Below, piece after piece: positions 21,607-62,280 of a stretch of 64,000 nucleotides of DNA. The stretch is from Bacteroides sp. Lineage in GTDB: Bacteria > Bacteroidota > Bacteroidia > Bacteroidales > Muribaculaceae. Under the pieces are notes generated by a model. It was given only the letters and a program-made list of their open reading frames with translations. It ran no database searches and had not been told where the DNA came from. The stretch covers positions 17,263 through 81,262 of the forward strand of contig JAMPBJ010000004.1 of the NCBI GenBank assembly GCA_023666835.1, written 5' to 3'. Made by a program: the position numbers and the translations under genes. Each line of letters opens with the position of its first letter. Position 1 is the first letter of the stretch.

Positions 21607-23394
21607 CTACATACGTTCGGGCACGCGGATGCCGAGAAGGCTCATGGCCGATTGAATCACGCGGGCAGTGCACTCGGAGATGGCCAGACGCAGTGCGCGG
21701 AGTTCGGGATCTTCCTCTTTGAGGATTGAGCAGTCGTGGTAGAACGAATTGTATTCCTTCACCAAATCGTAGGCATAGTTGGCGATGAGCGAAGGGCTGT
21801 AGTTGGCACCGGCAGCTGCTACGACCGAAGGATAATCAGCCAGACGTTTGATCACGGCAGTTTCGCGTTCACCGGGCTTGACTCCGATATAGCCTGTGGT
21901 TGCCATGCCGGCTTCAGCGGCTTTGCGAAGCACCGAGCGGATGCGGGCATAGGTATACTGGATGAAAGGACCTGTATTGCCGTTGAAATCGATGGTTTCC
22001 TCGGGGTTGAACACCATGTTTTTTCGCGGGTCAACCTTGAGAAGGAAATACTTGAGGGCTCCAAGACCCACCATTTCGGTGATGTCGCGGATCTCCTCTT
22101 CGGAGCATCCGTCGAGTTTGCCGAGCTCAGCGCTGACGGCGCGGGCCGTGTCGACCATTTCGTCCATAAGGTCGTCGGCGTCGACCACGGTGCCTTCACG
22201 GCTTTTCATCTTGCCGTTGGGCAGTTCGACCATACCGTAGGAGAAGTGAACCAGATCCTTGCCCCATTTGAATCCGAGGCGGTCGAGCAGGAGCGATAGC
22301 ACTTGGAAATGATAGTTCTGCTCGTTGCCTACCACATATATCATTTTGTCGATGGGATAGTCGATATAGCGGAGTTTCGCTGTGCCGATATCCTGGGTCA
22401 TGTAGACGGAGGTGCCATCGGAGCGCAGAAGCAATTTGTGGTCAAGACCTGCATCAGTCAAATCGGCCCACACCGAACCATCGTCCTTGCGGTACATGAG
22501 ACCCTTTTCAAGGCCTTCGAGCACTTTTTCCTTTCCTTCGAGATAGGTATTACTCTCGTAGTAGATCTTGTCGAAATCAACGCCCATGCGCTTGTATGTT
22601 TCGTCAAATCCGGCATATACCCAACTGTTCATCATGGCCCAAAGTTCTCTCACTTCGGGATCTTTAGCCTCCCAGGCGCGGAGCATGGCACGGGCTTCCT
22701 GCATGAGCGGAGAAGCTGCTTCGGCTTCTTCTTTGGTCATGCCTTCGGCCATAAAGGCGGAGAGTTCCTCTTTGTAGTGTTTGTCGAAAAGCACATAGAA
22801 ATCGCCGATCAGATGGTCGCCTTTTTTACCGGTTGACTCGGGTGTGGCACCATCGCCCCACTTTTTCCATGCGAGCATCGACTTGCAAATGTGGATGCCG
22901 CGGTCGTTGACAATGTTGGTTTTCACCACGCGATTGCCACAAGCCTTGAGAATTTCCGACAGCGAATATCCGAGAAGATTGTTGCGCACGTGACCAAGAT
23001 GAAGCGGTTTGTTTGTGTTGGGCGATGAGTATTCGACCATCACAAGGGGAGATTCGTCGGTGGCTGTTTTTATGCCGTAGTTGCTCTCCGACTGGATATG
23101 ATTGAGCACCGTTGACCAAAATGATGGCTCGATGACAATATTGAGGAAGCCTTTGATCACGTTGAAACGATCGACTGCAGGTTCATTGTCGACAAGCCAT
23201 TGACCTATCTCGGTGGCCACGTCCTCGGGGCGCTTGCGCGCTGCCTTCACCCAGGGGAACACAACAACCGTGAGGTTGCCCTCAAATTCTTTTTTTGTGG
23301 TTTCGAGTTTGATGCCGGCGGGATCAACTTCAAGTCCATAGAGATCTTTCAAGGCCTTGGATATGCCGGATGCTATGATATCGTCGATTGACAT
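21607..23394 (-). CDS. argS: Arginyl-tRNA synthetase
   Basis: A 595-residue class I aminoacyl-tRNA synthetase. Seen: N-terminal additional domain with FLNIVI, signature SSPNTNKPLHLGHVRNN (the HIGH motif as HLGH), DIGTAKLR, the KMSKS equivalent NGKMKSREGTVV, and a C-terminal all-alpha anticodon domain ending GIRVPERM. Length is normal. A near-perfect promoter overlaps the 3' end of the upstream gene, so argS can be transcribed on its own. Confidence 0.98.
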   Translation of the reverse strand: MSIDDIIASGISKALKDLYGLEVDPAGIKLETTKKEFEGNLTVVVFPWVKAARKRPEDVATEIGQWLVDNEPAVDRFNVIKGFLNIVIEPSFWSTVLNHIQSESNYGIKTATDESPLVMVEYSSPNTNKPLHLGHVRNNLLGYSLSEILKACGNRVVKTNIVNDRGIHICKSMLAWKKWGDGATPESTGKKGDHLIGDFYVLFDKHYKEELSAFMAEGMTKEEAEAASPLMQEARAMLRAWEAKDPEVRELWAMMNSWVYAGFDETYKRMGVDFDKIYYESNTYLEGKEKVLEGLEKGLMYRKDDGSVWADLTDAGLDHKLLLRSDGTSVYMTQDIGTAKLRYIDYPIDKMIYVVGNEQNYHFQVLSLLLDRLGFKWGKDLVHFSYGMVELPNGKMKSREGTVVDADDLMDEMVDTARAVSAELGKLDGCSEEEIRDITEMVGLGALKYFLLKVDPRKNMVFNPEETIDFNGNTGPFIQYTYARIRSVLRKAAEAGMATTGYIGVKPGERETAVIKRLADYPSVVAAAGANYSPSLIANYAYDLVKEYNSFYHDCSILKEEDPELRALRLAISECTARVIQSAMSLLGIRVPERM

Positions 23395-59051: not shown

Positions 59052-59555
59052 TTAGCGGTAGTCGGCAAAACGGCGCTGCAATTGCTGGCGTGCAAAGAAG
59101 ATACGGCTTTTGATGGTGCCGATCGGAAGACTCATCTTTTCGGCTATTTCGTTGTATTTAAAGCCCTGCACGTGCATCGAGAAAGGTATGCGGTATTTGT
59201 CGGGAAATTCGCTGATGGCACTTGTAATTTCGGTGGCGGCATATGATCCTTCGGGCGATTCAAGTCCGCTGTCCTGCGAGAGGTTCAGATGGTAGTAGTC
59301 TTCAGTCTGGTCGATGATAGTGGCCGAACGAACCACACGACGGTAGTTGTTGATGAAGATGTTGCGCATGATGGTGAATACCCATCCTTTGAAGTTGGTG
59401 TTCTCAACATATTTTTCACGATTGTTGAGCACTTTCATTGTGGTGTCCTGGAGAAGATCGTAAGCATCATCGCGGTTCGACGTAAGCATGTAAGCGAAGT
59501 TCAGCATGTTGGCCTGAAGACCCATTAGGCGATTGGTGAAAGTTGTAGTTTCCAT
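59052..59555 (-). CDS. ECF-type RNA polymerase sigma factor
   Basis: A 167-residue sigma-70 family factor with only regions 2 and 4. Region 2 (about 12-80) includes DDAYDLLQDTTMKVLNN and FKGWVFTIMRNIFINNYRR; region 4 (about 110-160) includes FKYNEIAEKMSLPIGTIKSRIFFAR, a classic helix-turn-helix. No anti-sigma gene is adjacent, and its size and wording match a widespread stand-alone Bacteroidetes ECF factor. Upstream, TACTTTTG (minus strand, 59656-59663) could be its -7 element, without a clear -33. A divergent kinase gene starts 295 bases away. Confidence 0.92.
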   Translation of the reverse strand: METTTFTNRLMGLQANMLNFAYMLTSNRDDAYDLLQDTTMKVLNNREKYVENTNFKGWVFTIMRNIFINNYRRVVRSATIIDQTEDYYHLNLSQDSGLESPEGSYAATEITSAISEFPDKYRIPFSMHVQGFKYNEIAEKMSLPIGTIKSRIFFARQQLQRRFADYR

Positions 59556-59808
59556 AATAGCTCGTTTTATTATATAGATAATTGAAATGGCATGAATGAA
59601 TAAATAAATAGTAATGTAGCGTCAGGTGGTCATTGGTTTATGTCCGTCGACATTGCAAAAGTAACAAGTTTGTAACATAAAAAATAATTTTAATGTTAAA
59701 ACATGTTAAAATTATTACATCGTTGTTACAACTTTGTTTAAACTATTTATTTATAATTAGTTAAACGATTAAATAAAATCATAAAAATTTTATTTAGTAA
59801 CGAGCTTG

Positions 59809-59850: not shown

Positions 59851-61191
59851 ATGATAAAGTCCTATACTACTACAATCGAAGGTACTTCTGTGTTCGCTGC
59901 CGAGGAAAATTTAAGTGAAAAAAATTCGCTGGAAGCGCAGTTCACAGACGAAAATATTTGTGGATCAGGCGCTTCGTGTACGGTCTATAGCGTACGACTT
60001 ATAGGCAGACATTTGGCTGTCAAACGTCTGGAAGAAGCCGAAAGACTCAATTCCACATGCGTAGCAGCTTTCAGAAAAGAATATGAGATGGGCAGTCGCT
60101 TGCGGCATAACGGCTTGCCTGTCTATCACAGCATGCGCGAAGATGTCGACGAGGTGTATCTTGTGATGGATTTCATCGATGGTTGCACACTGCAACATTA
60201 TATGTCGACTCCCCGGGGCAGATCAAGGATGGACAATGATGAAAACATAGTCAAGGTCATGAAGCAGTTGATAGAAGTGACTGACTATCTGCATCGGTGC
60301 GGAGTGATTCATTGCGATATAAAGTAGGAAAATATAATGGTGCGACGCAGCGATGAGGCTTTAATGCTGATAGATCTCGACAAAGCATATTGCGACACAC
60401 TCGACAAAACACATGGAGGTACGCCTGGCGTAAGTGATGCGGTCAGTGCCGGTCAACGACCTGTTGCCGCCAAGGACTATGCTGCGATTGGAAAAGTATT
60501 TGAAAGTATATTTAAGTGCAACGACAAACCAATACCTCGCAAATACAGGAAATTTCGACAACTGTGCGATGATCCGAATGTCACCTCCGACAAACTTATA
60601 GCTGCCCTTGAATCGCGATACGGATATTCAAAAATCATGTTATTGGCAATAATTATTATTGTTAATATAATGATTATATGTGCGTTACTGTATCTTTTCA
60701 TGAGCAGAACCAAAGCCAATAATGAATCGGAAGCTAATGCTTCAGCTGTTGTAGAAGAAATGGTTCAAGATACCATACATGACGAGCCAACACTGACAAT
60801 AGAAGAAAATAAAACGTCCTCTTCTTTCCCTCAACCCCCAAAAAGCGATGCAATCGAAAATGATCTAACTGAACAACACGAAGAGATCACTGACTTCGAT
60901 CAGCGAATGGAAGAATATATCAAGGAAGTAGGTTCGGCATTGAACGCATTGCGATCAGGCAGATTGACGGAGTCAGAGATTCAAGATATTGCAACACATC
61001 TTTCACAGACCTATAAATCTTCCTGGGAACAAATAAAAAATGACTTCAGAAAAAACAATACTGAAGCCTCGGAAAGTGAAGTGACAATGGCTATGGCCAC
61101 TGCACTTGGTGAAAGCAAAACTTTCAAACTGATGAACGATTTCAACAAAGAGTTGATTGATACGATAAACCGTCGTGTAGGCCGTGAATGA
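59851..61191 (+). pseudogene. Membrane-bound Ser/Thr protein kinase, interrupted by in-frame TAG
   Basis: Read through one stop, this is a 446-codon frame. The kinase half has a Gly-rich loop (CGSGASCTVYS, 38-48), Lys58 in LAVKRL, catalytic HCDIK (154-158), then TAG at codon 159 (60325-60327), then ENIMV, the metal motif DLD (175-177) and GTPGVSDAV in the activation segment. One membrane helix follows (about 261-284), then an acidic linker and a helical tail to VGRE. The stop replaces the residue between Lys and Glu-Asn in the family pattern HxDxKPEN. As is, translation yields 158 residues without Asn or DLD. A restart at ATG 60337 could make the second half. TAG ends ftsQ, rnhB and dapB, so it is a normal stop here. 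Confidence 0.85.
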
Positions 61192-61192
61192 G

Positions 61193-61744
61193 TCAGGCTA
61201 TTATTTCAAGCGAAAGCAGTCCGCCATCCTTCGCTCCACGATAGGCTCCAAGCGATTTTCCGTCGCGAACCACATCGCCGGCTATAAGCTCCTGGTTGAT
61301 GATAAGATGTGTGATTTTCAGTTTGTCGCCCGCAATCAGTTTACTGTTTATTGAGTCATTGACCAGAAATTCAAAATTGCCAAGATAGGTCATGACTATG
61401 GTGCGACACGGATGATAAGTAAGTCTGATTTTTGTACCGGTGGCAAGTTCGGCCACCTTGACACTGTCCAACGATGTGAACTCCGACGATCTTGTGCCTT
61501 CGCCCACATCATTGAGCAGTGCCAAATGGTTTTCGTAGCCGAGCCATTTTGCCAGAATGTCCATGGTGGAATTGTGCGGAGTGCGGTAACGTTCCTTTGA
61601 ATCGGCGCCCACAAGGCCCAACATGCGTTTCACCGTGGTTTCGCTTATACCGATTTCCTTTCCCAGCGGTGCACAATCAGCAGAGAAAATATGCTCCTTA
61701 CCATATTTGGCGAGTATCTTATCTATAATTGACTGAGAAAGCAT
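61193..61744 (-). CDS. Putative DNA-binding protein, HTH-like N-terminus
   Basis: A 183-residue soluble protein. Residues about 1-75 are helical with PLGKEIGISETTVKRMLGLVG followed by TPHNSTMDILAKWLGY, which resembles a helix-turn-helix pair used by small Bacteroidales regulators. The rest is beta-rich, with repeated GTKIRLTY and GDKLKITHLII type strands. No family is named with confidence. It is convergent with the interrupted kinase gene: the two stops are one base apart, so each transcript can run into the other. Confidence 0.7.
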   Translation of the reverse strand: MLSQSIIDKILAKYGKEHIFSADCAPLGKEIGISETTVKRMLGLVGADSKERYRTPHNSTMDILAKWLGYENHLALLNDVGEGTRSSEFTSLDSVKVAELATGTKIRLTYHPCRTIVMTYLGNFEFLVNDSINSKLIAGDKLKITHLIINQELIAGDVVRDGKSLGAYRGAKDGGLLSLEIIA

Positions 61745-61797: not shown

Positions 61798-62280
61798 TTA
61801 TAAGCCGAGGCTGTTGAGATCAACGCCGCCAACCGACTGAATGGCATCAACGCTGACGTCGGCTGCCTTTGCTGCGATGGATGAGAATTTCGAAACGAGT
61901 TTCGACATACGCTGGAGCTGTGCCGACGACATTTCAGACTCCATGCCTTCGAGTGTGCTCTGTACTTTTTGAGCTTTCTCGGCAATGCTCATAGCGCTCG
62001 ACATGTCCACCTTGCCGGCTTTGTATTTGGTCATGAAGTTGTCGTACTCAGTGAGCAGTTCCTCATATTCGTCAAGGAATTTGTCGATTTCAGAATTGTC
62101 GGCAGTAGTTTCAGCAGCAGGTTCAGCAGTTTCCACCGAAGTGGCGATTGTATCATTACCTCCTGCTACGGTTGTGATTTCGTCGGTTTCTACTTCCGTT
62201 TGAGTGTCATTTGATTTGCTGCCGCAAGCTGTCATGCCCAGCACTGTGAGTGAAATGAGAAAATAATTGATTGTTTTCAT
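61798..62280 (-). CDS. Small lipoprotein, Thr/Glu-rich then helical
   Basis: A 160-residue lipoprotein: signal MKTINYFLISLTVLGMTAC (Cys19), an acidic Thr/Glu/Ala-rich linker (about 22-65), and a helical domain (about 66-145) with LDEYEELLTEYDNFMTKYKAG and AEKAQKVQSTLEGM, then VGGVDLNSLGL. ATG 62280 is set by the signal peptide; upstream codons are spurious. Similar small lipoproteins are common in Bacteroidales and have no known role. Two -7-like elements on the minus strand (62339-62346 and 62388-62395) may serve it. Confidence 0.82.
   Translation of the reverse strand: MKTINYFLISLTVLGMTACGSKSNDTQTEVETDEITTVAGGNDTIATSVETAEPAAETTADNSEIDKFLDEYEELLTEYDNFMTKYKAGKVDMSSAMSIAEKAQKVQSTLEGMESEMSSAQLQRMSKLVSKFSSIAAKAADVSVDAIQSVGGVDLNSLGL

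Follow-up and report, generated by a model that had tools for sequence, protein, structure and literature searches.

The window, the whole stretch of 64,000 nucleotides analysed here, corresponds to G000:C6:17263-81262 of a draft genome that comprises 1,785,936 bases in 11 contigs and is 79% complete. On its forward strand it carries the gene of a Hanks-type membrane kinase whose reading frame is broken by a single stop codon. The ATG at 59851 opens an ORF of 158 codons (59851-60324, +) that covers the N-lobe with Lys58 and Glu77 and runs up to the motif HCDIK. This ORF is closed by an in-frame TAG (60325-60327, +), which is codon 159 of the kinase frame. The frame then remains open for 287 codons (60328-61191, +), through ENIMV, DLD, GTPG, one transmembrane helix and a C-terminal tail, until it ends in TGA at 61189-61191. 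Contig C6 ends approximately 3.7 kb from the TAG and approximately 2.8 kb from the last codon of the kinase gene. Upstream of the kinase, a gene for an ECF-type sigma factor (59052-59555, -) is arranged divergently. Downstream, an intact gene of 183 codons converges on the kinase (61193-61744, -), and is itself followed by a small lipoprotein-like gene (61798-62280, -).

The break falls within the catalytic loop, which reads HCDIK-[TAG]-ENIMV. A preliminary description of this DNA had claimed that the frames on both sides join exactly and that Lys58, HCD, Asn, DLD, GTPG, a transmembrane helix and a tail are all retained; each of these elements was found as described. The 158-residue piece alone matches the Pkinase family (PF00069) with 64.6 bits over profile positions 3-125. 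Once the stop is read as X, the match extends across the break (residues 33-178) and rises to 82.1 bits against a cut-off of 31.7, which indicates that the two frames form one kinase domain. Lys58, Glu77, His154, Asp156, Lys158, Asn161, Asp175 and Asp177 are all encoded and are invariant in eight orthologues; we take Lys58, Glu77, Asp156, Asn161 and either Asp175 or Asp177 to be those with catalytic roles. They do not reside on one uninterrupted polypeptide, as the TAG parts Asn161 and DLD from the rest. The strongest hydrophobic stretch of 19 residues starts at residue 262 and was taken as the transmembrane helix. This is the layout of the Hanks-type membrane serine/threonine kinases of bacteria, in which a kinase domain with Lys, HCDxK, Asn and DLD precedes a transmembrane helix and a tail. 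Among solved protein kinases, CaMK1G (2jam) is the best sequence match (E 1.2e-10), and the bacterial PknB and StkP rank lower. These proteins share the Hanks-type domain with the window protein (X at the stop), the match being remote and limited to the kinase domain.

In order to place the gene among its relatives, 397 genomes drawn from the larger family, the own genome included, were searched with at most four candidates scored per genome and a threshold of E <= 1e-25. This yielded 64 kinase matches in 53 of the 397 genomes, and the only one with an internal stop is that of the window. Orthologues at E <= 4.6e-57 are present in eight of the 396 other genomes (L041, L010 and L042-L047). Their identity to the window protein is approximately 29-41%, they align with it past the break as far as approximately residue 442, and none carries a stop. 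Within the genus, an orthologue at that level was found in one of 33 relatives (G029), so the kinase gene is sporadic. Across the 34 genomes of the genus, one of 130 Pkinase matches contains an internal stop, and this is again the window's kinase; it is also the only interrupted one among the eight Pkinase matches of its own genome. Together with the alignment across the break, this distribution indicates that the interrupted gene is more than a chance succession of two open frames. The own genome further encodes a second HCDxK kinase, free of stops (C9:39407-40252), which makes loss of the window's kinase plausible. When the 34 genomes of the genus were searched at the nucleotide level (at most eight candidates scored in each), the kinase region was matched only by a piece of 73% identity in G029, and the stop is therefore not dated by this comparison. 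A plasmid collection gave no match, three pattern matches on viral contigs include no relative, and a literature search on kinases of this kind returned nothing on this gene.

The alignment of related genomes at the interrupted codon, which the preliminary description had proposed as a check, has now been carried out. Sixty kinase loci were aligned to the window protein, of which 59 matched and one (L008) did not. Six of the 59 are further kinase loci from the own genome. L005 and L009 (the window itself) had been set aside beforehand, as had L039 and L040, which were taken to lie on the contigs of L041 and L010. All 59 loci have a sense codon at column 159, namely Pro in 48, Ala in six, Ser in two, Thr in two and Leu in one. 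Where the window copy has its stop, seven of the eight uninterrupted orthologues read Pro and one reads Ala. Five of the 48 Pro rows (L007, L033, L035, L036 and L037) have a changed loop, HFPxRPxT, and without them Pro accounts for 43 of 54. These five represent a related family of kinase-like proteins whose catalytic loop reads HFP[IV]RPxT and lacks HxD; the family occurs in five genomes including the own one, and its members are possibly pseudokinases.

The codons at this column also bear on how the TAG arose. A one-base change from CAG, GAG or AAG had been suggested as its source. The arithmetic of this suggestion is right, but none of the three codons was seen in the relatives: the 59 loci use 11 codon types at column 159, each two or three bases away from TAG. 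Hence either an intermediate codon absent from the observed set or a double change is needed, and by the same reasoning a single base-call error becomes less likely. The case advises caution in this respect, as an obvious one-step origin of a stop was not borne out by relatives.

If the kinase had been released from selection long ago, decay might be visible behind the stop. No second stop or frameshift was seen in the kinase frame. Where all eight orthologues agree on a residue, the window protein has the same one at 27 of 29 columns ahead of the stop (positions 30-158), at 16 of 18 in the part of the kinase domain behind it (160-255) and at three of four in the tail (345-442). When each of the eight orthologues was left out in turn and compared in the same way, the corresponding values ranged from 27/27 to 27/30, from 16/16 to 16/20 and from 3/3 to 3/4; after the stop, five orthologues lose no invariant column, one loses one, one loses two and one loses four. 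The terminal branch of the window has a length of 0.70 before the stop, 0.70 after it (kinase-domain tree) and 0.53 in the tail, compared to 0.49, 0.57 and 0.46 for its tree neighbour L041. The window thus has the somewhat longer branch of the two, with no greater excess after the stop. In these trees the split that unites the window and L041 has a support of 97, and several inner branches are weak (21 to 44). The ratio of differences at first plus second positions to those at third positions, taken between the window and three of the eight orthologues, falls among the values that pairs of orthologues give. Altogether, the region behind the stop displays no excess divergence, in a comparison with orthologues (~29-41% identity) that are too distant to reveal recent change; the decay figures reflect the whole of a long divergence, and no date for the stop follows from them. 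When substitutions alone were simulated in the absence of selection, the probability that the 287 codons behind the stop stay free of stops was 0.73 at 0.01 substitutions per site, 0.23 at 0.05 and approximately 0.05 at 0.10. An allele not under selection would accordingly need to be of recent origin. Counting open stretches in the same frame behind stops was also tried as a measure and rejected, because it did not separate interrupted genes from ordinary neighbours such as the ORF before ftsA.

The decoding apparatus of the genome was surveyed for signs that UAG is read as sense. Both an RF00005 search and ARAGORN report 32 tRNAs. The search for an amber-suppressor tRNA that had been recommended for this locus found a CUA anticodon in none of the 32 (ARAGORN). 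This absence is weak evidence, as the tRNA set is visibly incomplete: the list from this 79%-complete genome contains no Asn, no Asp and no assigned Ile tRNA. PylS was likewise not found in the 79%-complete genome, and release factor RF1 is present (446.3 bits, cut-off 423.25). The earlier claim that TAG ends normal genes nearby, and that global recoding is therefore unlikely, holds up well: argS (21607-23394) ends in TAG with its C-terminal DALR domain complete. In a sample of 401,262 bases (the window and 17 further stretches), a mechanical selection of ORFs with a minimum length of 100 amino acids gave 327, of which 50 terminate in TAG; in the window the figure is seven of 52, and the kinase fragment is included in both counts. 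Recoding of TAG throughout the genome was rejected on account of RF1 and of the TAG codons at the end of argS and other ORFs. Programmed readthrough would be expected to leave the stop conserved at the same place in orthologues; it is found there in 0 of 59 relatives, and with the eight orthologues uninterrupted a conserved recoding site was discarded as well. A stimulatory RNA structure behind the stop was also rejected: the region has a z-score of +1.64, and 191 of 200 shuffled sequences fold at least as well.

These observations are best explained by a recent nonsense allele of a sporadic, accessory membrane serine/threonine kinase that has been lost in this lineage, a reading to which we assign a probability of approximately 0.65. 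The stop would accordingly be real in the organism, and the loss is probably recent, since the rest of the frame is not visibly decayed. A nonsense mutation arising in this lineage would interrupt the gene, and translation would most likely end after 158 residues and release a soluble fragment. Such a fragment would possess the ATP-binding Lys and the catalytic Asp, and would be devoid of the metal-binding Asn161, DLD, the C-lobe and the membrane anchor. As these parts are missing, it should have no kinase activity. A recent pseudogene had been among the options listed at the outset, and it is now the best supported one: eight orthologues lack the stop, and a young pseudogene is characterized by a stop that disables a gene whose counterparts in relatives are unbroken. 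Against the nonsense allele we count that no other decay is present, that the window's branch has equal lengths on the two sides of the stop, that TAG lies two or more changes from the codons of relatives and that a suppressor may have escaped the incomplete tRNA set. Bacterial genes interrupted by nonsense codons, as described in the part of a survey drawn on here, likewise have a single in-frame stop in an otherwise open frame, with a downstream region that resembles intact copies (PMC7918605). They differ from the present case in that here only one genome represents the species, which places the age of the stop and selection behind it beyond measurement. The explanation is most likely an ordinary one, and no sign of a special decoding trick was found.

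Several other readings need to be weighed against the nonsense allele. One of them holds that the TAG is an error of the consensus or assembly, and that the codon is a sense codon in the organism, whose kinase would be intact. The draft state of the genome (11 contigs, 79% complete), the proximity of the site to a contig end (~3.7 kb) and the integrity of everything else in the gene speak in its favor. We nevertheless regard it as unlikely, as the 11 codon types of the column are two or three bases away and one wrong base would need a prior codon that was not observed; in addition, none of the 28 ABC, 12 Plug and two release-factor matches of the same genome contains an internal stop. Leaky readthrough, in which near-cognate tRNAs would occasionally read UAG and yield a little full-length kinase, so that the stop acts as a tolerated down-regulator, fits a post-stop region that is not more diverged than the region before it. 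In-frame stops are widespread in bacterial genes and the dN/dS around them lies below 1, according to the survey (0.82 for TAG in its Table 1, PMC7918605), which also fits readthrough, as does the fact that the two other isolated in-frame stops we met are TAG, too. However, the absence of the stop from the column in all 59 relatives means that no conserved device is involved, a recent origin accounts just as well for the undecayed frame, and neither a CUA tRNA nor PylS was found (in an incomplete tRNA set), while RF1 is present and no structure follows the stop. Taken together, this makes readthrough quite unlikely.

A further reading assumes two products, in which termination at TAG is followed by a restart at the ATG at 60337-60339 (+), giving two fragments, a soluble N-lobe and a membrane-bound C-lobe, which might pair or stay apart. 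This ATG lies nine bases behind the stop in an A-rich stretch, and the preliminary description had taken it as a possible restart. The codon is, however, that of Met163, a residue shared by all eight uninterrupted orthologues; the ATG thus has another reason to be there, and we regard it simply as encoding a conserved Met, and not as evidence for two products. The sequence AGGA in front of it is weak evidence as well, because the ribosomes of Bacteroidia are reported not to recognize Shine-Dalgarno sequences, as stated in the part of the source consulted (PMC9976891). Moreover, a break within the catalytic loop parts HCD from Asn161 and DLD. We consider a two-piece product highly improbable, and note as a caution that an invariant Met codon behind a stop can mimic a restart site. 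CrAss-like phages have their hosts among the Bacteroidales. It may be imagined that the amber stop is kept as a switch, with active full-length kinase made only when UAG is misread, for instance by a suppressor tRNA from a TAG-recoding crAss-like phage; the kinase would then act as a sensor of foreign decoding, and the TAG codons of L154 and L155 described below would reflect the same habit. We give this idea next to no credence. As far as the cited description of crAss-like phages with genetic code 15 goes, the present case resembles them in its in-frame TAG and its Bacteroidales setting, and differs in that the interrupted gene is cellular and has a single TAG, that TAG ends ordinary genes and that the search for a CUA tRNA found none (PMC9523058).

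Isolated stops of the same kind were encountered in homologues of the convergent partner gene. Among the partner matches listed, two homologues, in G097 and G237, contain one internal TAG each (L154 897-899, +, and L155 928-930, -). In both, the frame is otherwise open and alignable, and the positions of the stops differ. None of the 48 and 47 tRNA genes in G097 and G237 has a CUA anticodon; Asn and Asp tRNAs are present in both sets, and the Rfam counts are 50 and 47. Single TAG codons at unrelated positions, in genomes where no CUA tRNA was found, indicate that isolated nonsense alleles occur in this group, and judged by their sequences the two partner stops are in keeping with ordinary nonsense mutation. 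The isolated in-frame stops that we met number three, one in the kinase and two in the partner homologues, and each is TAG; this number is too small to weigh but points away from chance.

The partner gene itself adjoins the kinase orthologue in seven of the eight other genomes; in G245 the two matches lie on different contigs. Its family is broader than this pairing, with matches in 172 of the 397 family genomes at E <= 1e-5 (L124-L153 among the relatives). The 183-residue protein has no match above the cut-off in Pfam or NCBIfam, and its N-terminus resembles, by eye, a possible helix-turn-helix. If the allele is real, the locus adds a further case in which nonsense mutation removes an accessory signalling kinase and leaves the conserved gene beside it unharmed. 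A more useful lead than the stop may be the association of the kinase with its convergent partner, a pair that is itself conserved.

Some minor observations concern the remaining neighbours. The lipoprotein-like gene at 61798-62280 (-) has a match below the cut-off to DUF6591, and a similar-looking gene (L039 6198-6695, -) also follows the partner gene in L039. The ECF sigma factor gene at 59052-59555 (-), together with the intergenic stretch at approximately 59638-59737, has many similar copies across the genus. Over most of the gene these are up to ~80% identical at the DNA level, and another copy is located on the same contig (C6:15044-15541).
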